The position numbers and the translations under genes were made by a program. A stretch of 64,000 nt of DNA from Arthrobacter sp. GTDB lineage: Bacteria; Actinomycetota; Actinomycetes; Actinomycetales; Micrococcaceae. Below are positions 3,032 to 39,735 of this stretch, piece by piece; within the stretch, counting starts at the first letter, position 1; each line of letters opens with the position of its first letter. The notes under the pieces are model-generated. The model made no database searches. It was not told where the DNA came from and was given only the letters and a program-made list of their open reading frames with translations. Where the stretch lies: positions 403,667 through 467,666 of the forward strand of contig JAITLQ010000015.1 in NCBI GenBank assembly GCA_031277795.1. Direction: 5' to 3'.

Positions 3032-4362
3032 CCGCGCTGCGGCTCACGTGGATGCTGCGCCGCGCGGCGGACGCCCGCGCGTTCCTCTTAAGCGCCACGG
3101 CGTACGCGCTCGTGACGGCCCTCCTCCTCATCACGCTCTCGGGCGGCTGGGCCTTCCTGTCCTGGACGGACGAGCTGGCCGGCGCCTACCAGATGCTGGC
3201 GAGCGTGGCCCTGGTCGTGCTCGTGGTGCCGCTGGCGTACCTCGGGGCGGCGGCCGCCCGCCTCTCCGCCAGGGCGCAGGATCGCCGCCTCTCCACGCTG
3301 CGCCTCGTCGGCGCCACGGGCGCCCAGGTGAGCGGTGTGACGGTGCTCGGCGCGGCCGGGGAGGCGCTCGTGGGAGCCGTGGCCGGGGCCGGCCTGGCGA
3401 CGGCGCTGACCCCGCTCGTGGGCCTCGTCCCCTTCCGGGGTGCCCCGCTGGGCGCGAACCTGTGGATGCCCGCCTGGTTCGTGGCCTGCGTCGTCGCCAC
3501 CGTGGTGTTGCTGGCCGCCGTGAGCGCCGTGGCCGGGCTGCGCCGGGTGCTCGTCACGCCCCTGGGGGTGCGCACGCGCAACGCCGTGCCGGTGCCCTCG
3601 TGGATCCGCCTGGTCTTGGCCTTCGGCCTCGTGGTCGCCGGGATCGGCGTCACGAACTCCACGAGCGCCGTGAGCGCCGTTCTCGGTACCGCGGGTGTCT
3701 TTGTCGCCATCCTCGGGGCGTTTCTCGCGGTCCTCGTGGCGATCAACGCCCTGGGACCCTGGGTCCTGAAGATCTGGGCCGGGCGCCGCGCGGCCAGGGC
3801 CACCAAGCCCCAGGCCCTGCTCGCCGCCCGCACGGTGCTCGATGACCCGCAGGCCACGTGGCGGCAGGTCTCCGGCGCGGCCATGGCCGGGGTCGTCGCC
3901 GTCCTCGGCGGCGTGGGAGCCGCCCTCTCCCAGGGCATCCCTGGCGACGCGTCAGCGTCCGATGTGATGCTCGGGGCGGACATCCTGCGCGGCGTCATCG
4001 TCACGCTGGTCATCGCCTTCGCGGGCGTGGCCGGCACGGCGCTCGTCTCGCAGGCGGCCACCGTGCTCGACCGCGAGGAGCTCGGCCGTGCGCTCGACGC
4101 CATGGGCATTCCGGCGCGCTTCACCGCCTCCGCGCGCGTGGCGGGGCTGCTGCTGCCGCTCATCCTCGTGCTGCTCGTGGGCATCGGCGCTACGGCCGTC
4201 ATCGTCTTCCCGCTGGCCGGCCTGGCGCTCATTGCCTCGCCGACCACGGTGGCGATCGTGCTGCTCGCGTGCTGCGCCGGTGTGCTGAGCGTGTGGGGTG
4301 CCGCCCGCCTGGCTGGACGGGTGGCCCGCCCGGGAGCGGCGGCCCGGATGCCGGCGCTCTGA
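3028..4362 (+). CDS. FtsX-like ABC transporter permease
   Basis: Encodes 444 residues in two related halves. Each half has long hydrophobic segments around an extracytoplasmic stretch, as in FtsX-domain permeases. RLSARAQDRRLSTLRLVGATGAQ is the conserved coupling region of this superfamily (residues about 80-103), echoed in the second half by DREELGRALDAMGIPARFTASAR. The GTG start at 3028 overlaps the ATPase stop by 4 nt, fixing both the start and the partnership. It forms the membrane part of a small exporter of unknown substrate. The gene ends in front of a strong bidirectional hairpin. Confidence 0.85.
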   Translation: MTALRLTWMLRRAADARAFLLSATAYALVTALLLITLSGGWAFLSWTDELAGAYQMLASVALVVLVVPLAYLGAAAARLSARAQDRRLSTLRLVGATGAQVSGVTVLGAAGEALVGAVAGAGLATALTPLVGLVPFRGAPLGANLWMPAWFVACVVATVVLLAAVSAVAGLRRVLVTPLGVRTRNAVPVPSWIRLVLAFGLVVAGIGVTNSTSAVSAVLGTAGVFVAILGAFLAVLVAINALGPWVLKIWAGRRAARATKPQALLAARTVLDDPQATWRQVSGAAMAGVVAVLGGVGAALSQGIPGDASASDVMLGADILRGVIVTLVIAFAGVAGTALVSQAATVLDREELGRALDAMGIPARFTASARVAGLLLPLILVLLVGIGATAVIVFPLAGLALIASPTTVAIVLLACCAGVLSVWGAARLAGRVARPGAAARMPAL

Positions 4363-4401
4363 GCCGGCCGGGGCGGATGCCCGCCCCGGCCAACCACAGC
4401 A

Positions 4402-4441
4402 CGACGTCGGGTGCTCACCTTGGGGGGAGCACCCGACGTCG
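4402..4441. terminator. Bidirectional hairpin of the CCGACG palindrome family
   Basis: Perfect 15-bp inverted repeat (arms 4402-4416 and 4427-4441, starting CGACGTCGGGTGCTC) with a 10-nt loop, in the 89-nt gap between the convergent ABC permease and leuA. There is no U-tract on either side. The position supports transcript termination or 3'-end protection for both genes. It carries the CGACGTCGGGTG core found in many other gaps of this window. Confidence 0.7.
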
Positions 4442-4451
4442 AGATGCGGCG

Positions 4452-6227
4452 TTAGTGCGCCACGCGCATCCCCGCGCGATGGCCGGTCGCCGCCCGCAAG
4501 ACGGCGGTGAAGTTCGCCTCGAGTACCGATCGATGCAGTCCCGCCGCCCAGCCGGTCTGCGTACCCCGTCGGAACTCGATGAGACTCAGCGCGTCCGTGG
4601 AGTTGCCTGCGCCGATCGGTGTCTGGTGCAGTTCGAGGACCTCGAGGTCGATCCCGTGGGTGGACAGTGCAGCCGCCAGCGACTCGACGGGGCCCCGGCC
4701 GTCGAAGGAATGGGTGGTGCTGACCTCGCCGCAGCGCAGGGTGAGGGAGCTGCTCGGTCCCTCGATGGAGTAGCGCTCAAGCCGGATGTCGTCGGCACCC
4801 GGGGCGCTGTCGCCGCTCAGGTACGTCTCTTGGAAGAGCTGCCACAGCTGCGAGGCCGAAACCTCCCCGCCGGAGGAATCGGTGTGCGACTGCACGTGCC
4901 TGGCAAAGTCGATCTGGAGCCGGCGCGGCAGCTCCAGGCCGTACTCGCTCTCGAGGAGATAGGCGATACCGCCCTTGCCTGACTGGGAATTCACGCGGAT
5001 GACGGCGTCGTAGCTGCGGCCAACGTCCGAGGGGTCGATGGGCAGGTAGGGAACGCGCCAGGGGGCCAGGGCCGGGTCGAGTCCCTCGCCGTGGGCGCGT
5101 GTGGTGTGCTCGGCGAGGCCCTTCTTGATGGCGTCCTGATGGGTTCCGCTGAAGGCCGTGTGGACGAGGTCTCCGACGTACGGGTGCCTGGCATGAACGT
5201 CGATGCGGTTGCAGTCCTCGACGATGCGGCGAATGTGGTCGATTTCGGAGAAGTCGATCTGCGGGTCCACCCCTTGGGCGTGCAGGTTCAGGGCCAAGGT
5301 CACGAGATCCACGTTGCCGGTGCGCTCGCCATTGCCGAAGAGGCACCCCTCGACGCGCTGGGCCCCGGCCAGTACCGCGAGCTCGGCGCACGCCACTCCG
5401 GTCCCGCGATCGTTGTGCGGATGCACGGAGAGAATGACGGCCTCACGCCTGGACAGGTGGCGGTGCATGAACTCGATCTGATCGGCATAGACATTGGGGG
5501 TCGCGACCTCCACCGTGGCGGGGAGATTGAGGATCACGGGGCGCTCGGGCGTGGCTTGCCAGAGGTCCGTCACTGCGTCGCACACCTGCAAGGCGTACTC
5601 GGGCTCGGTGAGGTTGAAGACCTCGGGGGAAAACTCGAAGCGCACATTGGGCAGGTGTCCTGCCAGCTCGTACACGTCGCGGGCTCCGGCAAGGATCAGC
5701 TCGAGGAGCTCCTCGCGGCTCTTGCCGAGCACCGTGTCGCGCCAGAGGGGAGCGGTGGCCGTGTAGAGGTGGATCACCACGTCGTTCGTGATGCCCTCGA
5801 TGGAGGCGACGGTGCGCTTGATGAGGTCGCGGCGGGCCGGGGTGAAGACCACGAGGGTGACATCGCTCGGGGCCAGCGCCCCCTGGGCCAGGAGGCGGAC
5901 GAAGTCGTAGTCGGTGCCGGAGGCGGAGGGATAGCCCACCTCGATTTCCTTGTATCCCATGGCGACGAGCAGCTCGAAGAAGGCGCGCTTTCGGTGGGGA
6001 TCCATGGGCTCGGCGAGGGCCTGGTTGCCGTCTCTGAGGTCGACGGGCACCCACAAGGGGGCCTGGGTGATGCGGGCCTCGGGCCACGCGCGTTCGGCGA
6101 GCGGGACCTCGACCTTCGAGAAAACATCGCTGTACCTCGCGGAGGGCATCTGTGAGGCCCGCTGGCGGTTCCACCGTGGAGCGGTGGGAGGGATCGGGCC
6201 GGCCGGAGTGGAGAGGGGGTGATTCAT
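4452..6227 (-). CDS. leuA: 2-isopropylmalate synthase
   Basis: Encodes 591 residues. It condenses acetyl-CoA with 2-oxoisovalerate, the first committed step of leucine synthesis. The catalytic TIM barrel contains [10 protein letters not shown] (residues 62-71), the metal-binding HPHNDRGTG and the [12 protein letters not shown] stretch; the C-terminal third is the leucine-sensing LeuA dimer domain. The N-terminal run [16 protein letters not shown] matches the extended N-terminus known from the M. tuberculosis enzyme, supporting the start at 6227, which has AAGGACT upstream. The promoter region carries two palindromic operators shared with the divergent GntR gene. Its end faces the ABC permease. 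Confidence 0.96.
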
Positions 6228-13897: not shown

Positions 13898-13992
13898 GCA
13901 CCCGCCGTCGGGCCCCTGGTCCCTGGAAAAACGCGCCCGCCTGAACTTTCCGTGTACTCGAGTGCACGCATTGTTCGGGCGGGCGCGTTTTT
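13898..13992. repeat. Composite repeat: half A-core plus CTCGAG-centred palindrome (copy 1)
   Basis: GCACCCGCCGTCGGGC (13898-13913) is followed 13 nt later by a 66-nt palindrome (13927-13992) centred on CTCGAG, with ends AAAAACGCGCCCGCC and GGCGGGCGCGTTTTT. A few base pairs in the inner part are mismatched. The T-run makes it a good terminator for copC, and the mirror A-run serves the convergent gntR. The same composite recurs at 21.7 and 22.5 kb. Confidence 0.8.
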
Positions 13993-14000
13993 TGCTTGGC

Positions 14001-14666
14001 TCAGTCGTCCCCTGGCTCGGTCGCCTCGAAGATCTCGGGATGGCGCTGCAGCTCGAGGCGGGTCTTGCGGATGTGGGAGTGCATGAGGCGATCCGCCTCG
14101 TGCGCGTCGCGGTCCTTGAACGTCTCGAGCAGGAGGCGGTGTTCGAGGTGGGTCATGCGCAGGCCCTCCCAGCCCACGAGCTCGGAGTACGCCCTGCGGT
14201 AGTGATGGGTGGAGTTCCAGAGGTTCTCCACGAGCGAATAGAGCGAGTCCATGCCGGCCGGGCGGTAGCTCTCCAGGTGGAAGCGGCGGTCGTGGTGCAG
14301 GTAGTCGGTGACGGTCTCCGAGGCCTCGATGTCGGCCATGATGCCGGCGAGCCGCTCGACGTCCTCGTCGGTGTAGCGCTTGACCGCCTCGCGCAGCAGG
14401 AGGGAATCCAGGCGCTCGCGGATGAGGTAGGTCTCCTCGGCCTGGCGCAGGTCCATGTGGGAGACCCAGGCTCCGGTGTGGGCCACGAGCGTCACGAGGC
14501 CGTCCGCCTCGAGGATGCGCAGCGCCTCGCGAATGGGCAGGCGGGAGACCCCGAATTCCTCGGCCAGCAACTCCTGCCGGATGCGCTCGCCCGGGCGCCG
14601 CTGGCCCTCGAGGATCTCGGCGCGCAGGCTCTCAGCGATGCGGTGACTTGCCGATTCCTTGCCCAC
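14001..14666 (-). CDS. GntR-family regulator with FCD domain, likely repressor of the 14-21 kb catabolic unit
   Basis: Encodes 221 residues. The winged helix (residues 5-70) contains LRAEILEGQRRPGERIRQELLAEEFGVSRLPIREALRILEADG. The FCD domain has the metal/ligand-type residues of the family: EETYLIRERLDSLLLREAV, HHDRRFHLESYRPAG, THLEHRLLLETFKDRD. GTG 14666 has AAGGAG 5 nt upstream. It lies downstream of two SDR genes but behind a hairpin (14787-14820). Two TTGGATCCA palindromes in the divergent promoter region at 16.4 kb are its probable targets. The inducer is unknown. Confidence 0.88.
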   Translation of the reverse strand: MGKESASHRIAESLRAEILEGQRRPGERIRQELLAEEFGVSRLPIREALRILEADGLVTLVAHTGAWVSHMDLRQAEETYLIRERLDSLLLREAVKRYTDEDVERLAGIMADIEASETVTDYLHHDRRFHLESYRPAGMDSLYSLVENLWNSTHHYRRAYSELVGWEGLRMTHLEHRLLLETFKDRDAHEADRLMHSHIRKTRLELQRHPEIFEATEPGDD

Positions 14667-14786
14667 GGGGCTCCTTGAGGTCGCAAGCGCCGCCCGGCGA
14701 CGCGAAGGGATCCGATGCCCGCGCTCGGCGGGCCATGACGAGTCTAGGGCTCGCCCCGGCCCGTGGGCGGTGTCGATGAAGGAGGC

Positions 14787-14820
14787 CCCGGCGCGGGGGC
14801 ATCGCAACACCCGCGCCGGG
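14787..14820 (-). terminator. Hairpin after the SDR pair
   Basis: Perfect 11-bp stem (CCCGGCGCGGG at 14787-14797 with its complement at 14810-14820) just past the stop of the downstream SDR gene on the minus strand. It lacks a clear U-run. It separates the SDR transcript from gntR. Confidence 0.5.
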
Positions 14821-14832
14821 AAGCGTGAGCGC

Positions 14833-15591
14833 CTAGCCGGCCATGAACAGGCCGCCGTTGACGTGCAGGGTCTCTCCCGTGATGAAGCTTGCGGCGTCCG
14901 AGGCCAGGAACACGGCGGCGGCGGCCACCTCGCCCGGCTCGCCGAAGCGGTGCAGCGGCGTCTGGGCCATCATGCTCTCGCCGCGATCGCTCACGAGGTC
15001 CTTCACCATGCCCGTGTTGATGGTGCCGGGGGAGACAGCGTTGACGCGCACGCCGGCCGGGCCGAGCTCGTGGGCCAGGGAGCGGGTGAGGGCGATGACG
15101 CCGGCCTTGGAAGCGGCGTAGTGCGCGTGCAGCTGCGATCCGCGGTGGCCGGCGACCGAGGCGAAGGTGACGACGGCGGAGCCGGCCCCGAAGTGGGGGA
15201 TGCACGCGCGGATCAGCTTGAAGACGCCGTTGAGGTTGATGCGCTGCACGCGTTCCCAGAGCTCGTCGCTCGTCTCGGCCACGGTGCTGCGAGGGTAGAT
15301 GCCGGCCACGGGCAGCAGCAGGTCCACCGACCCGCTGGCCGCCACGGCCTCCGCCACGGCGGCGTCGATGGTGTCCTGGGCCGAGGCGTCGCCCGGGACC
15401 AGGGTCACGCGCTCGCGGCCGAGCTCGTCGGCCAAGGCCTCGAGCGCCTCCGGATGCAGGTCCACGAGCACGAGGTGGGCGCCGGAGGCGTGCAGCAGGC
15501 GTACCACCTCGGCACCGATCCCGCCGGAGGCGCCGGTGACGATGGCGCTGCGGCCGGAGAAATCGAAGCGCACGTTGGAGGAGGGGTTCAC
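14833..15591 (-). CDS. SDR-family oxidoreductase, second of pair
   Basis: Encodes 252 residues. TGASGGIG (about residues 18-25) binds NAD(P), and a DLHPEALEAL run after strand two, with an acidic residue, suggests NAD preference. The usual NNAG is replaced by LLPVAGIYPR. Catalytic VTFASVAGHRG and HYAASKAG follow, and the C-terminus FITGETLHVNGGLF is typical of FabG-like sugar or hydroxy-acid dehydrogenases. GTG 15591 starts 2 nt after the first SDR's stop. Likely role: oxidation of the compound imported by the divergent carrier; substrate unproven. Confidence 0.85.
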   Translation of the reverse strand: MNPSSNVRFDFSGRSAIVTGASGGIGAEVVRLLHASGAHLVLVDLHPEALEALADELGRERVTLVPGDASAQDTIDAAVAEAVAASGSVDLLLPVAGIYPRSTVAETSDELWERVQRINLNGVFKLIRACIPHFGAGSAVVTFASVAGHRGSQLHAHYAASKAGVIALTRSLAHELGPAGVRVNAVSPGTINTGMVKDLVSDRGESMMAQTPLHRFGEPGEVAAAAVFLASDAASFITGETLHVNGGLFMAG

Positions 15592-15593
15592 GA

Positions 15594-16358
15594 TCAGTAC
15601 CAGTTTCCGTCGATGGTCAGGCCGCCGTCGGCCATGAGCAGGTGTCCGTTGACAAAGGAGGAGGCCTCGGAGGCGAGGAAGTAGACGCACTCGGCGATCT
15701 CCTCCGGCTCCCCGAAGCGCCCGAGCGCCGTGCGGGCCTCGATGCGCTCCGCGCGTAGCTCGCCGCGTTCCTTGAGGTTGTCGGTGAGCGCCGAGCGGAC
15801 GTAGCCGGGGCCCACGGCGTTGGTGCGGATGCCCTCGGGCGCCCACTCGACGGCCAGCGTGCGGGTCAGGCCGCCGATGGCCGACTTGGCTGCCGTGTAG
15901 TTCAGGCGCTGGGGCATGCCGGTCAGCGCCGCGACGGAGGCGATGTTGACGATGCGCCCGCGGCTGGCCTTGAGCAGGGGGAAGGCGGCGCGGCACATGC
16001 GCAGGGTGCCCGTCACGTGAATGTCCAGCAGCACCGAGAGGTCGTCGTCGCTCATGGTGGCGGCCGGGGCAGGGCGGGCGATGCCGGCGCAGTTCACGAG
16101 CGCGTCAACGCGGCCCTCGACGGCGGCCACGGAGGCGAGTGCCGCATCCACCGCCGTGCGGGAGGTGACGTCGGCGCCCACGCCGCGCGCGGCGGGTCCC
16201 AGCGTGGCGGCGGCGCGCTCGGCCGCCGCGGCGTCACGGTCGACCAGCACGGCGCGGCCGCCGGAATGGATCCAACGCGCGGCGCTGGCCAGGCCGATGC
16301 CTGCTGCGCCTCCGCTGGCCACCATGACGGGGGAGGAGGGGGTGGGTGCGAGCGTCAT
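15594..16358 (-). CDS. SDR-family oxidoreductase, first of pair
   Basis: Encodes 254 residues with GGAAGIG (cofactor loop, residues about 16-22), an acidic VDRDAAAAER after strand two (NAD preference), VNCAGIA, a Ser region NIASVAALTG and YTAAKSAIGG, ending LMADGGLTIDGNWY. It resembles FabG-like dehydrogenases acting on sugar acids or diols. ATG 16358 has GGAAGG 7 nt upstream. It is the first gene of the minus-strand half of the catabolic unit, read from a promoter with a TTGGATCCA operator. Confidence 0.85.
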   Translation of the reverse strand: MTLAPTPSSPVMVASGGAAGIGLASAARWIHSGGRAVLVDRDAAAAERAAATLGPAARGVGADVTSRTAVDAALASVAAVEGRVDALVNCAGIARPAPAATMSDDDLSVLLDIHVTGTLRMCRAAFPLLKASRGRIVNIASVAALTGMPQRLNYTAAKSAIGGLTRTLAVEWAPEGIRTNAVGPGYVRSALTDNLKERGELRAERIEARTALGRFGEPEEIAECVYFLASEASSFVNGHLLMADGGLTIDGNWY

Positions 16359-16394
16359 AGCGCGCCTTCCGGGGCCGGGGATGCGAACGGGCAC

Positions 16395-16424
16395 ACACTA
16401 GGACTTGGATCCATTCACCGGCAA
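16395..16424 (-). promoter_or_regulatory. Probable promoter for the SDR pair
   Basis: On the minus strand TTGCCG (16424-16419), an 18-bp spacer and TAGTGT (16400-16395) read towards the SDR genes. The TTGGATCCA operator at 16405-16413 lies within the spacer. Confidence 0.5.
16405..16413. promoter_or_regulatory. GntR-FCD operator copy 1
   Basis: TTGGATCCA, palindromic around GGATCC, sits inside the spacer of the SDR promoter. It matches the core of a perfect 12-bp copy centred 62 bp away, about six helical turns, which would allow looping by one regulator. Confidence 0.65.
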
Positions 16425-16460
16425 ATCGGGAGATACTCCGGGACGATTCACGATCCTGGC

Positions 16461-16490
16461 TTTACATTGGATCCAATCTAGCCCTACCGT
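16461..16490 (+). promoter_or_regulatory. Probable promoter for E1-E2-MFS
   Basis: TTTACA (16461-16466), an 18-bp spacer and TACCGT (16485-16490) read towards the E1 gene. The operator 16466-16477 overlaps the end of the -35 and the spacer, the same arrangement as for the divergent SDR promoter. Confidence 0.5.
16466..16477. promoter_or_regulatory. GntR-FCD operator copy 2 (perfect)
   Basis: ATTGGATCCAAT is a perfect 12-bp palindrome of the kind bound by FadR-subfamily GntR regulators. It lies within the E1 promoter. The nearest candidate regulator is the GntR encoded at 14001-14666. Confidence 0.7.
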
Positions 16491-16559
16491 GGTGGGTGAT
16501 CCGAGACCCGCGTCACGTTCAGGCGCCGGCCTCACCCCTTCGAAGAGGAAGGCACTCGC

Positions 16560-18749
16560 ATGCCCTCGCACGAGCGACTCGAACCCAGCGCCCCCTGGAT
16601 TCGGCTCACCACCACCCAGCAGGATTGGGACGCGGCCGACCCCGGGCTGCTGACCACGATGCTCGTGCAGATGCAGGTCATCCGCTCCTTCGAGGAGGCG
16701 GTGCTCGCGCTCGCCGGCGAGGGCCTCGTCCACGGCCCGGCCCACTCCTCCATCGGCCAGGAGGGCGGCGCCGTCGGCTCGGCCGTCGCGCTGCGCAGCA
16801 CCGACGCCGTCAACGGCACGCACCGCGGCCACCACCAGTTCCTGGCTAAGGCGCTGGCCCACCTGGCCGACGTTGACGGCCGCATGGATCCCACGGCTCC
16901 CCTTGGCGCCGACGTCCGTGAGCTGCTGGAGCGCACCCTCGCGGAGATCCTCGGCCTGGAGTCCGGCTTCTCCCACGGCCGCGGCGGCTCGATGCACCTG
17001 CGCTGGGCGGAGGCCGGCTGCCTCGGCACCAACGCCATCGTGGGTGGCGGCGTCCCGCTCGCGGCCGGTCACGCGTTCAATCAGAAGCGCAGCGGCACCG
17101 ACGTGAGCTTCACGTACTTCGGCGACGGGGCCTCGAACATCGGCTCCACCCTGGAGACCCTCAACCTGGCGGCGGCGTGGAAGCTGCCCCTGTGCTTCTT
17201 CGTCGAAAACAACCTCTACGCCGTCTCCACCTCGGTGGAGGACGTCACGGGGGACGCCCGCCTCTCCGGCCGCGGCCCGGGCTTCGGCATCCCGTCCTGG
17301 CGCGTCGACGGCATGGATCCGCTCGCCGTGCACCTGGCCACCCAGGAGGCCACCGAGCGCATGCGCGCCGGCGAGGGACCCTCGCTCATCGAGGCCGAGG
17401 TCTACCGCTTCTTCCACCAGAACGGGCCCTTCCCCGGCTCGGCCTTCGGCTACCGCACCAAGGCGGAGGAGAAGGAGTGGAAGGGCCGCGACCCGCTGGC
17501 CCTGACCGCCGCACACGTGCTGCGCCGCGGCCTCCTCACCCAGGAGCAGATCGAGGCCATGACCGCCGAGGTCACCGCCGCCTGCGCCGCCGCGGTTGAT
17601 GCCCTCACCGAGCTGGATCCGGAGGGCGAGAACGGCAAGCGCCGCATCAAGCCGGGCCTGTGGCCCTCCACCGACTTCGTCGACGTGGGCATTCGCTCCG
17701 ACGCCTCCTCGCTGGAGGGCGCCCGTTCCCTCGAGCTCGCGGAGGCCGAGCAGGGCGAGGTCTCCCAGCGCCGTTTCGTGGACGTCGTCGCCGAGGTGAT
17801 GCACCGCCGCATGGAGCAGGATCCGCGCATCGTGGTGATGGGCGAGGACGTCCACCGCCTGAAGGGCGGCACCAACGGCGCCACGCGCGGGCTCGTCGAG
17901 GACTTCGGCGACCGCGTGCTCGGCACCCCCATCGCCGAGAACGCCTTCACGGGCCTGGCCGGCGGCATGGCCATGGATGGGCGTTTCCGCCCCGTCGTGG
18001 AGTTCATGTACGCCGACTTCATGTGGGTTGCCGCTGATCAGCTCTTCAACCAGGTCGGCAAGGCGCGCCACATGTTTGGCGGGGACGTCGACATGCCCTT
18101 CGTCCTGCGCTCCAAGGTGGCCATGGGCACGGGCTACGGCTCGCAGCACTCGATGGATCCGGCCGGCGTGTTTGCCACCCAGCCCGGCTGGCGCATCGCG
18201 GCGCCGTCCACGCCGTTCGACTACGTGGGCCTCATGAACGCCGCCCTCACCCTCGAGGATCCGGTCGTCATCCTCGAGCACGTCAACCTCTACGCCCAGC
18301 AGGGCCCGGCCGTCGCGGACCTCGACTACGTCATCGAACCGGGCAAGGCCGCCGTGCGCCGCGAGGGCCAGGACGTCACGGTCCTCACTTACCTGGACAT
18401 GGTGGCGCCGAGCCTCGCCGCGGCGGAGACCGCGGCCCTGGACGCCGAGGTCATCGACCTGCGCTGGCTCGATCGCGCCTCCATCGATTGGGACACCATC
18501 GGCGCCTCCATCGAGAAGACCAACGCGGTGATGATCGTGGAACAGGGCGCGCGCAACGCCGGATACGGGGCCTGGCTCGCCGACGAGCTGCAGCGCCGCT
18601 TCTTCGACCACCTCGACGCGCCGATCGAGCGCGTCACGGGGGCCGAGGCGAGCCCCAGCATCTCGCAGGTCCTGGAGTCTGCGGCCTTTGCCCATCAGCA
18701 CGACGTCGAGTCGGGCTTCGCCCGCCTGGCCGCCCAACTGGGCCGCTGA
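16560..18749 (+). CDS. Thiamine-diphosphate 2-oxoacid (acetoin-type) dehydrogenase E1, alpha and beta fused
   Basis: Encodes 729 residues. Residues about 35-380 are an E1-alpha domain with the ThDP motif GDGASNIG...N (from about 188) and SHGRGGSMHL. From about 403 (RRFVDVVAEVM) comes an E1-beta domain with GEDV, PIAENAFTGLAGGMAMDG and an EHVNLYA region. Alpha and beta are usually separate genes, so this is a natural fusion. It would decarboxylate a 2-oxo acid (or cleave acetoin) and pass the acyl group to the E2 encoded 25 nt downstream. ATG 16560 has GAGGAAGG upstream. No E3 is present nearby. Confidence 0.88.
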   Translation: MPSHERLEPSAPWIRLTTTQQDWDAADPGLLTTMLVQMQVIRSFEEAVLALAGEGLVHGPAHSSIGQEGGAVGSAVALRSTDAVNGTHRGHHQFLAKALAHLADVDGRMDPTAPLGADVRELLERTLAEILGLESGFSHGRGGSMHLRWAEAGCLGTNAIVGGGVPLAAGHAFNQKRSGTDVSFTYFGDGASNIGSTLETLNLAAAWKLPLCFFVENNLYAVSTSVEDVTGDARLSGRGPGFGIPSWRVDGMDPLAVHLATQEATERMRAGEGPSLIEAEVYRFFHQNGPFPGSAFGYRTKAEEKEWKGRDPLALTAAHVLRRGLLTQEQIEAMTAEVTAACAAAVDALTELDPEGENGKRRIKPGLWPSTDFVDVGIRSDASSLEGARSLELAEAEQGEVSQRRFVDVVAEVMHRRMEQDPRIVVMGEDVHRLKGGTNGATRGLVEDFGDRVLGTPIAENAFTGLAGGMAMDGRFRPVVEFMYADFMWVAADQLFNQVGKARHMFGGDVDMPFVLRSKVAMGTGYGSQHSMDPAGVFATQPGWRIAAPSTPFDYVGLMNAALTLEDPVVILEHVNLYAQQGPAVADLDYVIEPGKAAVRREGQDVTVLTYLDMVAPSLAAAETAALDAEVIDLRWLDRASIDWDTIGASIEKTNAVMIVEQGARNAGYGAWLADELQRRFFDHLDAPIERVTGAEASPSISQVLESAAFAHQHDVESGFARLAAQLGR

Positions 18750-18774
18750 GCCAAGGAAGCGCAAGGACATCACC

Positions 18775-20145
18775 ATGGCAACCCTGATCACCATGCCGGC
18801 CATCGCGGCCGATTCCACCTCCGCCGTCCTGGGCAGCTGGCTCGCCGCCGAGGGCGCCGAGCTCGCGGCGGGCGACGCCCTCGCAGACATCGAGACGGAG
18901 AAGGCCACCGTCGAGTTCGAGGCCCCCGAGGCCGGCACGCTGGCCCGCCTGCTCGTCGCCGCCGGCGCCGAGGTGCAGGTGGGCGCCCCCATCGCCGTGC
19001 TCACCGCGCCCGGCGAGACGGAGGACGCGATCGCCGCCCTCTTGGGCGCCTCGCTGCCCGACGCCGCCGTCCCCGGCTCCCGTGCGGGCGGCGCCGAGGG
19101 CGCGGGTTCGCAGGCCGACGCCGCCGTTCCCGGCTCCGAGCTTCCCCCCGCCCCGGCGGGGGAGACGCCGGCGGCCGCCCCGGCCGGGGCATGGGCCTTC
19201 GCCTCCCCGCTGGCCCGCCGCCTGGCCAAGGACGCCGGCCTGCGCCTCGACGAGATCACCGGCTCCGGCCCCTCCGGCCGCGTGCTGCGCGGCGATGTCG
19301 AGGCCGCCGTGGCGGCCCGCGCGGCCCGGCCCGCCGCCCCGGCGGGCGCGGGCACCCGGGCGGCCGCAGCGCCGTCGGGCACCGTGCCCACTCCCGCCCA
19401 GGCATCCGGCCCCGCCGCGGCGTCGAGCTCCCCCACGTCCGGGCCGGGCGCCCCGGTGCCGGAGGGCGCCGAGGAGGTCAAGGTGACGCGCATGCGCGGC
19501 GCCATCGCCCGCCGCCTGACCGAGTCCAAGACCACCGTGCCGCACTTCTACCTCTCGGCGGACGTGCGCATGGACGAGCTGCTGGCCCTGCGCCAGCGGA
19601 TCAACGCCGCCGCCCCGCGCAAGATCACCGTGAACGACCTCATCGTCAAGGCCGTCGCGGCCGCGCTCGTGGCCGTTCCCGAGGCGAATGTGCGCTGGGA
19701 CAACGGGCGGATCCTGCGCTTTGCGCACGCCGACATCTCGGTGGCCATCGCCACCGAGGACGGGCTCGTGACCCCCGTGGTCACGGGCGCCGAGCAGGCC
19801 AGCGTCAGCGATGTCTCGGCCCGCGTTGCCGACTTTGTGGCGCGGGCCAAGGAGAACCGCCTGCGGCCGGAGGAGATCTCCGGCGGCATGTTCTCCGTCT
19901 CCAACCTCGGCATGTTCGGGACCCGTGAGTTCACGGCGATCCTCAACCCGCCGCAGTCCGGAATCCTCGCGGTGGGGGCGGCCAGCCCGCGCCCCGTCGT
20001 GGAGCCGGACGGGACCCTGGGCGTGGCCTCCCTCATGACGGTCACCCTCTCCGCCGATCACCGCGTCATCGACGGTGCGGTGGCGGCGCGCTGGATGAAC
20101 GCCTTCACCGAGGCGATCCAGCGGCCCCTCTCGCTCCTCATCTGA
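18775..20145 (+). CDS. Dihydrolipoamide acyltransferase E2 of a 2-oxoacid/acetoin dehydrogenase complex
   Basis: Encodes 456 residues. The lipoyl domain (1-80) has the lipoyl-lysine motif DIETEKATVEF with Lys43. An Ala/Pro-rich linker leads to a peripheral-subunit-binding domain near residues 142-180 (SPLARRLAKDAGLRLDEI...GPSGRVLRGDV), then a second linker. The catalytic domain (about 235-456) carries NDLIVKAVAAAL and ends with the active-site motif DHRVIDGA. It accepts the acyl group from E1 and transfers it to CoA. AAGGAC precedes ATG 18775. Acyl specificity cannot be read reliably. Confidence 0.9.
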   Translation: MATLITMPAIAADSTSAVLGSWLAAEGAELAAGDALADIETEKATVEFEAPEAGTLARLLVAAGAEVQVGAPIAVLTAPGETEDAIAALLGASLPDAAVPGSRAGGAEGAGSQADAAVPGSELPPAPAGETPAAAPAGAWAFASPLARRLAKDAGLRLDEITGSGPSGRVLRGDVEAAVAARAARPAAPAGAGTRAAAAPSGTVPTPAQASGPAAASSSPTSGPGAPVPEGAEEVKVTRMRGAIARRLTESKTTVPHFYLSADVRMDELLALRQRINAAAPRKITVNDLIVKAVAAALVAVPEANVRWDNGRILRFAHADISVAIATEDGLVTPVVTGAEQASVSDVSARVADFVARAKENRLRPEEISGGMFSVSNLGMFGTREFTAILNPPQSGILAVGAASPRPVVEPDGTLGVASLMTVTLSADHRVIDGAVAARWMNAFTEAIQRPLSLLI

Positions 20146-20152
20146 GCGTTGC

Positions 20153-20180
20153 GCCGGGGTGGGGTCCTCCCCACTCCGGC
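20153..20180 (+). terminator. Weak hairpin between E2 and MFS genes
   Basis: GCCGGGGTGGGG pairs with CCCCACTCCGGC (one G-T pair) around a 4-nt loop, 8 nt after the E2 stop, without a U-run. It may attenuate expression of the carrier relative to E1/E2. Confidence 0.4.
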
Positions 20181-20294
20181 CCCACGGCGCGCGGCACCCC
20201 CACCCCCTCCGTCCCGAGCATGTCGGCGGAGCGCGCCGGCTGGGACCATGAACACCGGGCCCCTCACTCGCGGCCCCCTCCCCGAAAGGCACCC

Positions 20295-21641
20295 ATGAGC
20301 ACCACCGAAATGCGCGGCCGCCAGGTCCGCAGCGATGTGGCCGGGATCAACCGGCGCATCATGTGGCGGCTGATGCCGTTGCTGATGCTCATCTACGTCA
20401 TCTCCTTCCTCGACCGCACCAACATCGGTATGGCCAAGGACCGCATGGAGATCGACCTGGGCATTTCCGCGGCCGCCTATGGCCTCGGCGCCGGGCTCTT
20501 CTTCCTCGCGTATGCGGCGCTGGAGATCCCGTCGAACATGATGATGCACAAGGTCGGCGCCCGCGCCTGGATCGGCCGCATCATGATCACGTGGGGCATC
20601 ATCTCCGGCCTCATGGCGATCGTGTGGAACGAGGCATCGTTCTACGTCATGCGCATCCTGCTGGGTGCAGCGGAGGCCGGACTGTTCCCCGGCGTCATGC
20701 TGTACCTGACGTACTGGTTCGGCCGCGACATGCGCGCCCGCGCCAACGGCTACTTCCTGATCGGTGCCTGCATCGCCTCCGTGCTCGGCGGCCCCGTGGG
20801 CGGCCTGCTGCTGCAGATGGACGGTGTGGGCGGCCTGCACGGGTGGCAGTGGATGTTCATCATCGAGGCCATCCCGGCCGTGCTGCTCTCCTTCGTGGTG
20901 TTCTTCAAGCTTCCCAACCGTCCGCACAACGCCAAGTGGCTGAGCAAGGACGAGGCGGACGAGATCGTCTCCCGCCTGGAGCGCGAGGCGGCCGAGACCG
21001 TCGAGGCCTCCGGCACGCGTTCCTTCCTTGGCATCTTCAAGGACCGCACGGTCATGTTCGCGATCTACATCAACTTTGCGCACCAGATCTCGCTGTACTC
21101 CGTGACGTACTTCCTGCCCTCGGTCATCGCCAAGTCCAACGGCTCGCTCCCGCCGTGGCTCGTGGGTTCCTTCGCGGCCATCCCGTGGCTCTTCGGCGGC
21201 ATCGGCGCCGCCCTGATCACGCCCCGCGTGACCCGCAACGCCCGCAGCACCAAGCTGGCCGTGGTGGTCGGCGTCCTCGCCATGACGGTGGGCACCACGA
21301 TCGGCGTGCTCGCCGGGCCCGTGTTCGCGATCGTTGGCCTGTCGCTGGCCGGCCTCTTCTGGTTCGTGGTGCAGCCGATCATGTTCTCGGTGCCCTCCAC
21401 GCGCCTCTCCGGTGTGACCCTGGCCTCCGGCCTGGCGCTCATGAACACCGTGGGCATCACGGGCGGCTTCGTCGGCCCCACCGTCATGGGCTTCACCGAG
21501 CAGGCCACCGGCAACACCTTCGCCGGTCTCTGGCTCTCCGTGGTGCTGCTGGTCCTCGCCGCCGTTGCCGCGTTCTTCCTCGACCTCGACCCGACCAAGA
21601 AGGCAGCGAAGGCGGCCGGGATTACCGCCGCCATGCGCTGA
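20295..21641 (+). CDS. MFS transporter, anion:cation symporter (ACS) type
   Basis: Encodes 448 residues, 12 predicted helices. The N-terminal run RLMPLLMLIYVISFLDRTNIGMAK is the ACS-family signature (R-x-x-P...D-R-x-N-x-G-x-A). EIPSNMMMHKVGARAWIGRIM is the family's motif A variant and LLGAAEAGLFPGVMLYLTYWF is also diagnostic. Relatives carry hexuronates, tartrate, phthalate, 4-hydroxyphenylacetate or other organic anions. It is the third gene after E1 and E2, so the substrate is probably an organic acid or its precursor. ATG 20295 has GAAAGG upstream. Confidence 0.9.
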   Translation: MSTTEMRGRQVRSDVAGINRRIMWRLMPLLMLIYVISFLDRTNIGMAKDRMEIDLGISAAAYGLGAGLFFLAYAALEIPSNMMMHKVGARAWIGRIMITWGIISGLMAIVWNEASFYVMRILLGAAEAGLFPGVMLYLTYWFGRDMRARANGYFLIGACIASVLGGPVGGLLLQMDGVGGLHGWQWMFIIEAIPAVLLSFVVFFKLPNRPHNAKWLSKDEADEIVSRLEREAAETVEASGTRSFLGIFKDRTVMFAIYINFAHQISLYSVTYFLPSVIAKSNGSLPPWLVGSFAAIPWLFGGIGAALITPRVTRNARSTKLAVVVGVLAMTVGTTIGVLAGPVFAIVGLSLAGLFWFVVQPIMFSVPSTRLSGVTLASGLALMNTVGITGGFVGPTVMGFTEQATGNTFAGLWLSVVLLVLAAVAAFFLDLDPTKKAAKAAGITAAMR

Positions 21642-21659
21642 CCCGCTGAGGTGACCCGC

Positions 21660-21789
21660 GCCGACGGCGGGTGGCCCCGGTACTCCGCGTGGCCACCCGA
21701 CGTCGGGCACCTGACCCCTGGAAAGACGCGCCCGCCTGAACTTGTCCGTGTACTCGAGTACACGGACAAGTTCAGGCGGGCGCGTCTTT
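21660..21789. repeat. Composite repeat: A palindrome plus perfect 68-nt CTCGAG palindrome (copy 2)
   Basis: A pair of arms (21660-21676 and 21691-21708, GCCGACGGCGGGTGGCC type) is followed 13 nt later by a perfect palindrome at 21722-21789. Its arms are 34 bp, with no loop and CTCGAG at the centre. The ends are AAAGACGCGCCCGCC and its complement ending in TTT. It lies between the codirectional MFS and lipoprotein genes. Copies 1 and 3 (13.9 and 22.5 kb) keep the same layout. Confidence 0.85.
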
Positions 21790-21889
21790 GCTTGCGGGCC
21801 GTGAGGGCATCGTGACCTGCCGGTGCTTCCCCGGTGCAGGGTGGGGTCATAGCGTGGGCGGATGGTTGGTTTCAGAGATCGGGGCCGTC

Positions 21890-23251: not shown

Positions 23252-25240
23252 ATGACTCACGGTCCGGCACTCCATGGTCCTGGCCCCGGTGGGGGCCGCG
23301 GCGGGCACGGTCCCGCCAAGGTCAGCAAGGCTGACCGCAACCAACTTCAGCTCCACCCGGTGAGCCTGCGTCGCATCGGCGCGCTCTTCACGCCCTACAA
23401 GGGCCCCCTGTTCCTCGTGGTGCTGCTCATCACCGGCAGCTCCATCGTTTCCCTGTTCCAGCCGTTCCTGGTGCGCGGCGTCATCGACGACGCCCTGCCG
23501 CACGCGAACGTCCCCCTGCTGACCTGGCTCGTCATCGCGATGATCGCGGTCGCCGCCGTCACCGCCGTCATCGGCGTGTGGCAGACCTGGATCTCCACCC
23601 GCGTGGGCCAGGGCGTCATGCACGATCTGCGCACCCGGCTCTTTGGCCACCTGCAGCGCCAGTCGCTCGGCTTCTTCACGAAGACGCACGGCGGCGAGGT
23701 GCAGTCCCGCATGACCAACGACATCAACGGCATGCAGAACCTCGTGACGAACACCGCCACCTCGGTGGCCTCCAACGTCACCACCGCCATCGGCACCGTC
23801 ATCGCCATGCTGGTGCTCTCGCCCTGGCTCGCGCTGATCTCCCTCCTGGTGATCCCGCTGGCCGTGTGGGTGGCCCGCCGCGTGGCCGTGCTGCGCCGCG
23901 ACATCACGGCCAGGCAGCAGGCGCAGATGGCCCAGCTGCAGACCTACGTTGACGAGGGCCTCTCGGTCTCCGGCATTCGCCTGGCCAAGACGCTCGGCAC
24001 GCAGGACCGCGACGCTGATCGCTTCAGCGACGCCAGCCGGGAGCTGGTGCACCTGGAGATGCAATCGCAGCTGGCCGGCCGCTGGCGCATGGCCACGATG
24101 CAGATCATCTTCGCGGCCATCCCCGCCGTCATCTACCTCGCCGCCGGTTTCCCGCTGGGCGGCAACGGCCTCTCGATTGGCACCGTGGTGGCCTTCACCG
24201 CGCTGCAGGCCAATCTGTTCCGCCCCGTCATGGGTCTCATGTCGGTGGGCGTCCAGTGGGTCACCGCGATGGCCTTCTTCTCCCGCATCTTCGAGTGGCT
24301 GGACCTGGTCCCTGACATCAAGGAGCCGGCCGCGCCGGTGAAGATGGATCCCGCGACGACGCGCGGCGAGGTCCGCTTCGAGGGCGTGAGCTTCGCCTAC
24401 GGCGACGGGGCCCCGGTGCTCAAGGACATCGACCTGACCATCGCGGCCGGCACCACGACGGCGCTGGTGGGGCACACCGGCTCCGGCAAGTCCACGCTGG
24501 CCTCGCTGCTTCCCCGCCTCAACGACGTGACCTCCGGCCGCGTCACGATCGACGGCGTGGACGTGCGGGACATGAGCTTCGCGGACCTGGCGTCGCTGGT
24601 GGGCGTGGTGAGCCAGGAGACCTACCTGGTGCACGCCTCGGTCCGCGACAACCTGCGCATGGCGGCCCCCGAGGCCAGCGACGAGACGCTGTGGGAGGCC
24701 CTCGAGGCCGCCCGCATCGCCGAGCTGGTCCGGCGCCTCCCCGAGGGGCTCGACACTCTGGTGGGCGCCCGCGGACACCGCTTCTCCGGCGGCGAGCAGC
24801 AGCGCCTTGCGATCGCCAGGACGCTCTTGCGCAACCCCCGCGTGCTGGTGCTCGACGAGGCCACCTCGGCCCTGGACAACACCACCGAGGCGGAGGTGCA
24901 GGCCGCGCTCGATGACCTCGCCGCCACCCGCACCACCCTGACGATTGCCCACCGCCTCTCCACCGTGGAGGACGCCGAGCAGATCGCGGTGCTGGAGAAC
25001 GGGCGGGTTCTGGAGCGCGGGACGGCTTCGGAGCTGCGTGCGGCCGGCGGGGCGTTTGCCCAGCTCTCCGCGCGCCAGGCCGCCGGCCTGCCGCCCGAGG
25101 ACGAGGCGGCCGACGGTGCGGAGGGCGCCCAGGGCGCCGAGAGCCACCAGCACGACGACGCCGCCTCGCCCCGGGTGGGCGGGCGCGGCTCCCGCGGCCG
25201 CGGGCAACGTGGCCAGCACGACGGCGTGCACGCTCACTAG
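23252..25240 (+). CDS. ABC multidrug exporter, membrane and ATPase domains fused
   Basis: Encodes 662 residues. A Gly/His-rich start is followed by a six-helix type IV exporter membrane domain (about 40-340) and an ATPase domain with GHTGSGKST, QETYLVHASVRDNL (Q-loop), signature FSGGEQQRLAIAR, VLVLDEATSALD and switch His in IAHRLSTV. It works as a homo- or heterodimer exporting drugs or lipids. The C-terminal 45 residues are acidic, then Gly/Arg/His-rich (ends GQHDGVHAH), outside the conserved fold. It is divergent from a MarR gene with operators in between, so induction by a toxic substrate is likely. Confidence 0.92.
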   Translation: MTHGPALHGPGPGGGRGGHGPAKVSKADRNQLQLHPVSLRRIGALFTPYKGPLFLVVLLITGSSIVSLFQPFLVRGVIDDALPHANVPLLTWLVIAMIAVAAVTAVIGVWQTWISTRVGQGVMHDLRTRLFGHLQRQSLGFFTKTHGGEVQSRMTNDINGMQNLVTNTATSVASNVTTAIGTVIAMLVLSPWLALISLLVIPLAVWVARRVAVLRRDITARQQAQMAQLQTYVDEGLSVSGIRLAKTLGTQDRDADRFSDASRELVHLEMQSQLAGRWRMATMQIIFAAIPAVIYLAAGFPLGGNGLSIGTVVAFTALQANLFRPVMGLMSVGVQWVTAMAFFSRIFEWLDLVPDIKEPAAPVKMDPATTRGEVRFEGVSFAYGDGAPVLKDIDLTIAAGTTTALVGHTGSGKSTLASLLPRLNDVTSGRVTIDGVDVRDMSFADLASLVGVVSQETYLVHASVRDNLRMAAPEASDETLWEALEAARIAELVRRLPEGLDTLVGARGHRFSGGEQQRLAIARTLLRNPRVLVLDEATSALDNTTEAEVQAALDDLAATRTTLTIAHRLSTVEDAEQIAVLENGRVLERGTASELRAAGGAFAQLSARQAAGLPPEDEAADGAEGAQGAESHQHDDAASPRVGGRGSRGRGQRGQHDGVHAH

Positions 25241-25294
25241 CGCTGTCCGGGGTGGCCGGTGCGCTGCGCCGACGCCCTGGCCTTCCGGGTCCGC

Positions 25295-25360
25295 CGAACG
25301 GCCGGATCGCTTCAGAACTGCTGCAAGCTTCGCGCAGTCTCGAAGCGATCCGGCCGTTCG
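25295..25360. repeat. GGCCGGATCGCTTC palindrome (family B2, copy 1)
   Basis: Perfect 19-bp arms (25295-25313 and 25342-25360) around a 28-nt loop that contains a nested stem ACTGC...GCAGT and AAGCTT. A second copy, loop included, is at 27.14 kb in the same orientation. It lies downstream of the ABC exporter. Confidence 0.8.
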
Positions 25361-25409
25361 CGTGTGGATTCAGTGGCTCCGTCGTCGCGGGCGCTCCGAG
25401 GCTGCCTGG

Positions 25410-25476
25410 CTTTGAGGCGGGTTGTGCGCTTTGAGGCGTGCATTCCCCTCCTCAAAGCGCAGAACGTGCCTCAAAG
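25410..25476. repeat. 67-nt TTTGAGGC repeat (family B3, copy 1)
   Basis: The outer pair CTTTGAGGC/GCCTCAAAG and inner pair GCGCTTTGAGG/CCTCAAAGCGC form a double palindrome of exactly 67 nt. Copies of identical length lie at 27004, 30424 and 46220, all in the same orientation. Confidence 0.8.
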
Positions 25477-25498
25477 CTGCGGTGGAGCTGCGCTGGTT

Positions 25499-26836
25499 TC
25501 AGCGCCGCGCGTTGGCCGGGCCTCGGGTGATCTCGTGCCACTCGTCGCTGCCCGCCTCGCTCCAGGTGCGCAGGCGCCCGTTGGCCTCGTTCGGCGGCTC
25601 CTGCTCCGGCGGAAAGCCCAGCCAGTAGGTCTCGTCCGGATCCCAGCCGGTGATTGCCGAGCAGCCGTGGCCGGGCACCTCGATGGGCCGGGTGGCGCAG
25701 GCGAGATAGGCACCCACCGTGAGGTGAACGGCGTCGTACTCCCGGGCCACGCGCCGCCAATCGGGGATGACCCAGCTGGTAGCCCGCGGCTCGTCGCCGA
25801 GGTAGAGCGCGAGCCGCGCGTGCGGACCATATGAACGGCTCACGTCGAGGGGGAACGCGGCGCACAGCCTCACCCAGTCCCGTTCCGAAGCGACCTCGAG
25901 GACACGTGGGGCCGCCTGGGGAAGGAGCCTCCCCGCCTGCATGAGGGGGCCGACCGGCCCGCTGTCCTCCTGGATGAGGAAGCCGGTGGGTGTGCCCGGC
26001 ACGGCGAGCGGTTCATCGTCGTAGGGTGCGTTGGTCGGGGCATCGGGTGCGTCGCACGCGGCGGCGGGCAGGGTGCCGTGGGTGATGGGCGGGCAGTCCT
26101 CACCGAAGGTGATCGGCGAGGTCCACCACGTGCTGGAGAACCCCTCGGCCTCTTCCTCGGCGCGGTGCCGAGCCCATTCGGTCCACACGTCATGGATGTT
26201 TCCCCGCAGTCGCCAGCGCCACTCGCTGCCGTCGCTGTCCTGCCTTTCGATCCACTGGTCCTCGGGGTCCACCTCCCTGGACCACCAGGCCGCGGCCGGG
26301 CTCGTCGCCACGGCCTGGGCCACGGGGAGCAGCGCGGCGATCATCTCCGGCTGGGCGAGCAAGACGTCGACGCCGCTGGGCGGCTGCCACCCGCGGGTCG
26401 CACCGGCGGTCTCGGCCAGCGCCGACAGGACCGTGCCGGGCTGGGGGACTCGCGGCGTGATGCGTCGGCAGGCGTCGGCGGCTTGGGCGATCAGCGGTCG
26501 GGGGTCTCGCCTGGCCGCTTGGTGGGCTGCGCGCGCCTTCGCCTCGACCGCTTTGAGCTGCGCCGGGGTCATCCAGGAACGATCCTCGGGGTACGGCATC
26601 CCGAACGTCGCGCCGCGGGGATCCGGGTCCAGGGCGGCCTCGGCCGCCCACACGGCGTCGGACAGCGGGAGTTGGGCGGCGCACGCCGACCCGAATGCCA
26701 GTGCGACCGCCGCCGAGTCTGGCGTCGCGGCCCCTCCCGCTGCGCGCGCAGCTCCCTCCTCCCACGCGAGGACAAGGTTCAGGCACAGCAAGCGCCCGCG
26801 CGGCCCGGCCAGGAGTTCCTCAGCGGTGATTCCCAT
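25499..26836 (-). CDS. Hypothetical protein, flanked by mirrored repeats
   Basis: Encodes 445 residues; no family recognised. The N-terminal 120 residues are Ala-rich helical sequence (LLCLNLVLAWEEG, LKAVEAKARAAHQAARRD). The middle and C-terminus are rich in Trp, Pro and acidic residues (WWSREVDPEDQWIERQ, WDPDETYWLGFPPEQEPP). No signal peptide or membrane helix, so probably cytosolic. The ATG at 26836 is the only good start. The gene sits between B2-B3 repeats on its 3' side and B3-B2 on its 5' side, with 22-bp tandem repeats just upstream; this could be a cassette boundary. Codon use looks like that of its neighbours. Confidence 0.7.
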   Translation of the reverse strand: MGITAEELLAGPRGRLLCLNLVLAWEEGAARAAGGAATPDSAAVALAFGSACAAQLPLSDAVWAAEAALDPDPRGATFGMPYPEDRSWMTPAQLKAVEAKARAAHQAARRDPRPLIAQAADACRRITPRVPQPGTVLSALAETAGATRGWQPPSGVDVLLAQPEMIAALLPVAQAVATSPAAAWWSREVDPEDQWIERQDSDGSEWRWRLRGNIHDVWTEWARHRAEEEAEGFSSTWWTSPITFGEDCPPITHGTLPAAACDAPDAPTNAPYDDEPLAVPGTPTGFLIQEDSGPVGPLMQAGRLLPQAAPRVLEVASERDWVRLCAAFPLDVSRSYGPHARLALYLGDEPRATSWVIPDWRRVAREYDAVHLTVGAYLACATRPIEVPGHGCSAITGWDPDETYWLGFPPEQEPPNEANGRLRTWSEAGSDEWHEITRGPANARR

Positions 26837-26875
26837 GGGCCCACGCTAGCCGCTGGGTTCCTAGCCCGGCCCTGC

Positions 26876-26953
26876 CCATCCCGGGCTCCACCCTTGGCCA
26901 CCCCGGGCTCCGCCCCTGGCCACCCCGGGCTCCGCCCGTGGCCACCCTGGGCC
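26876..26953. repeat. 22-bp tandem repeat, about 3.5 units
   Basis: Three full 22-bp units (26876-26897, 26898-26919, 26920-26941; core CCCGGGCTCC) and a 12-nt partial unit lie 40 nt upstream of the hypothetical gene, in its presumed promoter or leader. Confidence 0.85.
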
Positions 26954-27003
26954 AGCGCCTGTCCGGCCCGCCCTTCGCGTGCACGGGCCTGCCGCACGCC
27001 GCG

Positions 27004-27070
27004 CCTTGAGGCGGGTGGTGCGCTTTGAAGCGTGCATTCCCCGCCTCAAAGCGCAGAACGTGCCTCAAAA
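27004..27070. repeat. 67-nt TTTGAGGC repeat (family B3, copy 2)
   Basis: Same length and orientation as the copy at 25410, with a few substitutions (TTGAAGCG for TTTGAGGCG in the inner arm). It lies in a divergent gap, so it is not simply a terminator. Confidence 0.8.
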
Positions 27071-27138
27071 CGCTGGGAGACCGCGGGACCGGCCCGGCGA
27101 GACCCTCCCGGAGCGCCCGCTCGCCTTCGGCTTCAGCG

Positions 27139-27202
27139 AAACGGCCGGATCGCTTCAGGACTACTGCAAGCTTCGCGCCGTCTCGAAGCGATCCGGCCGT
27201 TT
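27139..27202. repeat. GGCCGGATCGCTTC palindrome (family B2, copy 2)
   Basis: Perfect 18-bp arms (27139-27156, 27185-27202). The loop is nearly the same as in copy 1 (CTGCAAGCTTCGCG is shared). Order here is B3 then B2, the mirror of the other side of the hypothetical gene. Confidence 0.8.
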
Positions 27203-27237
27203 GCGTCGAGCCAGGTCACCGGCTGGCGCGCCCACTC

Positions 27238-27254
27238 TTCTACTGCCGGTAGAA
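27238..27254. promoter_or_regulatory. Palindrome before the copper/heme unit
   Basis: TTCTACTGCCGGTAGAA is a perfect 6-bp-arm palindrome 46 nt before the start of the membrane protein gene; TAGAAT inside it could be a -10. CTACnnnnGTAG resembles operators of BlaI/CopY-type regulators, which would fit copper control, but this is only a resemblance. Confidence 0.4.
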
Positions 27255-27300
27255 TCCGTGGTGGTCTGTCGACCGCCCGCGCCGCACAGAAGGAGGAAGC

Positions 27301-27990
27301 ATGCACAACCGCCTGCGTCCCCTCTTCCGTGCCTGGGGCGCCTCGGGCGTCGCCGTGTCCATCGCGGTGTTCTCGCACCTCGTGGCCGGCGGCCATGCCC
27401 CGGCGCCGCTGCTCGTGGCCATGGCCTGGGCCCTCGGCGCGGTCGTGGCCCTGCCCTTCACCAAGGCGCGCCCCTCGCTCATGAGGCTCGCCGGCCTCCT
27501 GCTCCCGAGCCAGCTGATCTACCACCTGGCCTTCGGCGGCTCCCACGCCGGCATGCACACCAGCACTCAGGCGAACACCCTGGGCGGCGAACACGCCGCG
27601 CACCTCGCGGAGGCGGCGGCGCTCGCCTCCCGCAACTTCGGATCCCTCGGCACCTCGGACCCGGGCTCCGGCGCCCTCGCCACGGGCTCCCTCCCCACCG
27701 AACTCTTCGCCCAGGCGGCGCAGGCGGGCCACGGCATGATCCTGGCCCACGTGCTCTCCGCCCTGGCCTCGGTCCTGCTGATCCGCCACGCCGAGCGCGG
27801 CCTCGCCGCGGCGTGGCGCTGGTGCACCGTGCGCCTGTCGGCCGGCACCGCCCTCCCCAGCCTGCCCGTGGCACCTGGCCGCCCGGCCGCCGTCGTGCCC
27901 TCGGTTTGCCTTCCCGGCCCCCACCTCCTGGGGCTTCCCCTCGCCGCCCTGCGGCACCGCGGCCCGCCCGCGCTCCCGGCGTTCGCCTGA
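27301..27990 (+). CDS. Membrane protein of the PCuAC/DyP copper unit
   Basis: Encodes 229 residues. At least four hydrophobic segments (about 14-30, 36-55, 60-78, 145-162) surround a His-rich extracytoplasmic loop (YHLAFGGSHAGMHTST, GGEHAAHLAEA) and another His/Met stretch (GHGMILAHVLS). These could coordinate copper. The C-terminal 70 residues are Pro/Leu-rich and poorly ordered. No named family recognised. The start 27301 has AGGAGG upstream. It precedes the copper chaperone by 112 nt and the DyP gene beyond it, suggesting a role in copper handling. Confidence 0.78.
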   Translation: MHNRLRPLFRAWGASGVAVSIAVFSHLVAGGHAPAPLLVAMAWALGAVVALPFTKARPSLMRLAGLLLPSQLIYHLAFGGSHAGMHTSTQANTLGGEHAAHLAEAAALASRNFGSLGTSDPGSGALATGSLPTELFAQAAQAGHGMILAHVLSALASVLLIRHAERGLAAAWRWCTVRLSAGTALPSLPVAPGRPAAVVPSVCLPGPHLLGLPLAALRHRGPPALPAFA

Positions 27991-38546: not shown

Positions 38547-38591
38547 CAGGCGCCCGACGGCGTGGGGGAACCACGCGCCGTCGGGCGCCTG
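38547..38591. repeat. A-family palindrome after the SGNH gene
   Basis: Arms CAGGCGCCCGACGGCGTGG (38547-38566) and its complement with one extra base (38571-38591). It lies in the 281-nt convergent gap. Confidence 0.7.
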
Positions 38592-39390: not shown

Positions 39391-39514
39391 TTTAAACACA
39401 CTTTAGTTCAATCTTCAAGTAATGCCTGGGCGATGTGGCGCAAGAGACAGCACTCCACGTAGACTGAACCCCGTGCCCGGCGCCGCTGGCGTGGCGACGG
39501 ACACGGCTGTCGAC

Positions 39515-39735
39515 CCGCGGCGGGAGAGTCCCTCCCCGCTTGGGGTGGGCGCCGTAGGAGCAATCCCTCCCCGGGAAACTCTCAGGCACCCGCACCGCCG
39601 CGACGAGGCAACCCTGGAAAGCGGCAAGCCCCGGGCCACCGGAGCGAGCCCACCGACGGTGCAAGCGCCCTCATGGCCTCTCGGCCGATGGAGCGCGGAA
39701 TCTCTCAGGTCCCGATACAGGGTGGGGAGGACGCG
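39515..39735 (+). ncRNA. Tandem glycine riboswitch upstream of gcvP
   Basis: Two aptamer signatures are present. Aptamer 1 (about 39519-39592) has CGGGAGAGTCC, GCCGTAGGAGCAA and GGGAAACTCTCAGGCACC. Aptamer 2 (about 39611-39731) has CACCGACGGTGCAAGC, GCGGAATCTCTCAGG and the closing GGGTGGGGAGG. This tandem architecture senses glycine and switches on the glycine-cleavage genes when glycine is plentiful. A -10-like TAGACT lies at 39460-39465. The gcvP start is 50 nt past the second aptamer. Confidence 0.93.

Follow-up and report, generated by a model that had tools for sequence, protein, structure and literature searches.

Three described systems come closest to the repeats analysed here: bidirectional intrinsic (Rho-independent) terminators, REP elements and the attC sites of integron cassettes. 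Intrinsic terminators are recognized by a stable hairpin, a T tract and a location at gene ends. REP elements are GTAG- and CGTC-tagged palindromes of 20-40 bp (PMC3733652), and integron cassettes present a single gene bounded by palindromic repeats of ~60 nt. We describe a locus at which a 445-residue gene stands between copies of two hairpin families, B2 and B3, that resemble each of these systems in part. As in bidirectional terminators, the hairpins are strong and symmetric, usually lie soon after a stop codon and often occupy convergent gaps, but they lack a T tract and their copies share sequence as genome-wide families. Like REP elements, they are dispersed intergenic palindromes with several families per genome, but they are about twice as long, number only tens of copies and occur in a genome without a Y1 (RAYT) transposase. 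The integron likeness extends to the single gene between palindromes of the right length, whereas the stems are near-perfect, no recognizable GTTRRRY/RYYYAAC cores were seen in B2 or B3 by inspection, no integrase scored above cut-off and the gene is fixed in three species.

The 445-residue gene and its flanking repeats

The window, by which we mean the whole 64,000-nt stretch analysed (C10:403667-467666), comes from the 3.6-Mb genome of a Galactobacter-type bacterium; among named species, Galactobacter valiniphilus is its closest relative. We compared four genomes of the genus: the window genome, G001, G002 (a Galactobacter MAG) and G003. Gene positions were taken from a simple, home-made codon-usage gene caller, and B2 and B3 sites were counted by covariance-model search on both strands.

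The gene (25499-26836, minus strand) has on its left an ABC transporter gene (23252-25240, plus strand; Pfam ABC_membrane and ABC_tran) that is colinear in G001, G002 and G003, and on its right a gene for a hypothetical protein (27301-27990, plus strand), which is followed by genes for a PCu(A)C copper chaperone and a Dyp-type peroxidase. A palindromic box, TTCTACTGCCGGTAGAA, precedes the 27301 gene and the copper-chaperone cluster at 27238-27254; it is intact in G002 and G003, almost intact in G001, and resembles an operator. The 445-residue reading frame is real: it has syntenic orthologues in two other Galactobacter species (73% and 69% identity), matches in related genomes (19 of 59) and distant relatives on plasmids of Rhodococcus, Prescottella and Micrococcus. 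The G003 orthologue (3482-4801) occupies the same place as in NZ_QQXK01000002.1 (G. valiniphilus). Codon adaptation of the gene is below that of its neighbours.

The sequence-only reading had assigned the protein to no known family, and this holds: it has no match in Pfam, NCBIfam or PADLOC and represents an unnamed actinobacterial family, with distant relatives in other genera, for which there is no family model. A profile search of solved structures returned no match, PHROGs gave nothing meaningful, and the AlphaFold model (six sequences) reached a mean pLDDT of 48, too poor for a structure search. The plasmid neighbourhoods of the homologues yielded no functional hint. A phage or known defence gene was considered and rejected, with no phage match, no PADLOC match and no meaningful PHROGs match.

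In the left, convergent gap, B2 (25297-25358, plus strand) starts 57 nt past the ABC stop and B3 (25409-25477, plus strand) lies 21 nt past the stop of the 445-residue gene; both are conserved in G002 and G003. On the right follow a tandem repeat with a period of 22 bp (26866-26952; 4.0 copies, 86% match), present in the window genome only, then B3 in the divergent gap (27003-27071, plus strand) and, beyond it, B2 (27140-27201, plus strand), which in the relatives stands before B3 or a B3 remnant. Coordinates and alignments thus bear out the mirrored B2-B3 / B3-B2 order read from the window, as well as the 22-bp tandem between the gene and its inner repeat. The claim that individual repeats keep the same orientation is also right, because both pairs match better direct than inverted. 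The B2 copies are identical at 59/62 positions (87% over 87 nt including flanks) and the 69-nt B3 copies at 64/69. All four hairpins fold far more strongly than shuffled sequences (MFE z -4 to -8.5). The presence of B2 and B3 here is not due to chance, given that the elements are dispersed genome-wide and the copies at the locus are more alike to each other than to copies elsewhere. A mirror image of the whole unit was rejected, since every copy is direct and the order differs in the relatives.

Two dispersed families of probable 3'-end hairpins

The window alone cannot reveal two properties: the repeats occur genome-wide, and relatives do not keep the mirrored order. B2 occupies 16 sites in the window genome (32 matches on two strands), approximately 14 in G002 and 12 in G003; the covariance-model search found none anywhere in G001. 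B3 and its sister form, GCTTTGCCCACC...GGTGGGCAAAC, occupy approximately 38, 18 and 14 sites in the window genome, G002 and G003, respectively. Many sites are common to several species by position. At the corresponding position in G003, some copies are missing or have decayed. We found no description of B2 or B3 repeats in the literature, and Rfam has no family at the window hairpins; other loci gave only microRNA-hairpin matches below threshold. A glycine riboswitch aptamer at 39511-39607 does score above the Rfam threshold. A further dispersed palindrome, GTGCCCGACGNCGGGTGG...CCACCCGNCGTCGGGCAC, occurs at 38552, 57574 and 63393 of the window and at many half-sites, also beside B3 copies, and the B3 model additionally found a related 60-nt hairpin family, RTTTGTGGCGCGTTTCGTGCG...CGCACGAAACGCGCCACAAAY, in another genus of the family (G015, loci L108-L112).

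Compensatory changes are frequent in both stems, with 49 cells altered on both sides for B2 compared with 23.7 in shuffles, and 24 compared with 14.6 for B3. Since stem pairs co-vary, the hairpin itself is maintained. Sequence is conserved as well, with 22 of 62 B2 columns invariant across 34 copies. A moderate excess of copies is seen close to stop codons: 50 of 85 B2 and B3-type copies (20/34 and 30/51, respectively) lie within 60 nt of one, against 40% expected from random placement in the same gaps. Only five copies lie clearly in divergent gaps, and all are the right-hand copies that the window genome, G002 and G003 have at the 445-residue locus; for one sister-form copy (L095:1535) the two gene sets disagree, one placing it in a divergent gap and the other 174 nt beyond a stop. 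ABC genes as favoured B2 neighbours were seen at several sites, but this was not general.

B2 and B3 would therefore mainly be 3'-end elements of Galactobacter, acting as terminators and/or as hairpins that protect transcript ends, and usable on both strands. Compared with intrinsic terminators, they have the stable hairpin and, except for the right-hand pair of the locus, the position at gene ends. What speaks against terminator activity is the T tract, which follows neither B2 nor B3 stems in a scan of 25200-27400; within the window, one copy of a sister hairpin family near 13.95 and 21.75 kb does end in T6. At the left convergent gap, one 3'-end hairpin per convergent transcript is what the distances to the two stops lead one to expect, so that the ABC transcript would be ended by B2 and that of the 445-residue gene by B3.

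Probable duplication and decay at the locus

The window genome, G002 and G003 share a colinear arrangement of the ABC gene, the 445-residue gene and the 27301 homologue. The elements run B2-B3-gene-B3-B2 in the window genome, B2-B3-gene-B2-B3 in G003 and B2-B3-gene-B2 followed by a B3 remnant in G002; the mirror is thus private to the window genome. The left pair is stable across the three species and the right side is unstable: in the window genome the 22-bp tandem occupies the position of the relatives' right B2, and B2 is found beyond B3 instead. In a tree that rests on 62-nt sequences and is modest evidence, the six B2 copies of the locus group together (clade support 0.92), so the right-hand pair is probably a local duplicate. 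The two window copies are sisters (0.81), and these groupings suggest local duplication together with conversion or re-copying within the window genome. G001 has the ABC gene and the next gene without the 445-residue gene or the repeats, and its ABC stop lies ~41 nt before a conserved TTCTA...TAGAA box.

On balance we favour, with some reserve, the reading that the 445-residue gene was acquired next to a duplicated 3'-end hairpin pair and that the right-hand pair is a relic in a promoter gap. The gene would have entered between the ABC gene and the copper cluster next to a hairpin pair, and the B2-B3 unit would have been duplicated locally, leaving a copy stranded in the present promoter gap, where it may now be decaying. 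G002 would have lost its right-hand B3, and in the window genome the right B2 would have been displaced and the tandem grown in its place. An insertion beside the repeats is made plausible by the absence of the gene from G001, its weaker codon adaptation and the flanking local B2-B3 duplicates, although a loss in G001 is also conceivable.

To this extent the earlier proposal of a cassette or an insertion between repeats stands, but its excisable form is unsupported. Excision as a circle finds no backing in a gene that is colinear in three species, with a right-hand order that differs in each, no scar and neither a RAYT nor an integron integrase. An empty site with a single B2-B3 pair had been expected; the sole gene-less genome, G001, has no repeat there. 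It holds no excision scar either, and because it carries no B2 at all it cannot show whether excision happened. The gene might also have recurred beside the same repeats elsewhere, but no second copy was found in the window genome. Colinearity with different flanks in relatives would have told against the proposal: the gene is indeed colinear, but in its flanks it is the order or number of the elements that differs, not their kind.

Alternatively, B2 and B3 could be mobile repeats of a non-autonomous, REP- or MITE-like kind, with independent insertions to the left and right of the gene. Their dispersal as families of similar copies, the differing numbers among species and the copies missing or decayed in G003 fit such a history, but the single clade of locus copies rules against independent landings, and many sites are positionally shared among species. 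Moreover, no Y1 transposase (PF01797) was matched in the window genome, whereas control genomes were positive, and the aligned cases gave no clean target duplication. We consider this account unlikely.

Hairpins at the edges of insertions and deletions

A different possibility is that the hairpins are recombination sites at which exchange inserts, swaps or deletes the intervening DNA, the 445-residue gene being one such cassette. In the window genome an 8.5-kb segment (C13:190037-198631) lies exactly between two B2 copies and G003 has a single B2 (C20); conversely, a 2.8-kb G003 segment (C11:65632-68489) lies between two B2 copies, with a single B2 in the window genome (C18). Similarly, an 8-kb window segment (13900-21790) absent from G003 is enclosed by two copies of another hairpin, AAAAACGCGCCCGCCTGAACTT...GGGCGGGCGCGTTTTTTG, with one copy at the joined site in G003. 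B2 stands at an indel edge in five of nine judgeable loci (one at ~0.4 kb). This enrichment is marginal (p ~0.03 for B2 without correction for gap type), given that indels also border 17 of the 79 gaps as a whole and 10 of the 26 convergent ones. Along ~217 kb of colinear C10/C22 sequence, only 2 of 17 indels are flanked on both sides by matching repeats, and paired B2 copies are often only ~70-80% alike. A chimeric single B2 at empty sites was inspected as a recombination footprint and rejected: in most cases the lone B2 is close to one or other of the two copies at the junctions and is hence not diagnostic of recombination. As a separate observation, G003 lacks a 39-kb island (G000 C10:251886-290991) but retains, at the joined site, the B2-B3 pair that stands ~0.4 kb from the end of the island.

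Searches turned up no dedicated recombinase. For the integron integrase model TIGR02249 nothing passed the cut-off; its only matches were weak tyrosine-recombinase fragments of the kind seen in every control genome. With the 445-residue gene present in all three B2-carrying species as well, recombination at the hairpins is a distinctly doubtful explanation of the locus. The indel data are compatible with hairpins that mark insertion-tolerant gaps, with a 3' hairpin arriving as part of every inserted unit. The broader idea that several long-hairpin families of Galactobacter serve both as transcript ends and as gene-exchange junctions, in a cassette system that relies on common terminators and needs no integrase, is speculative and quite improbable. 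Finally, binding sites for a chromosome-organizing or regulatory protein, with pairs that insulate the gene, could account for stem conservation beyond pairing and for pairs on both sides, but hairpin positions follow stop codons, one sister-form site has decayed in a relative and the right pair is unstable, which makes this reading barely credible.

Returning to gene gain beside duplicated 3'-end hairpins, local duplication and decay replace a mobile-cassette story for the 445-residue locus. The hairpin families at these gene ends are new to Rfam and, among the genomes searched, essentially limited to three species of Galactobacter, apart from a related family in one further genus. Their natural one-copy and two-copy junctions offer a way to examine if sharing a 3'-end hairpin favours the gain and loss of genes.
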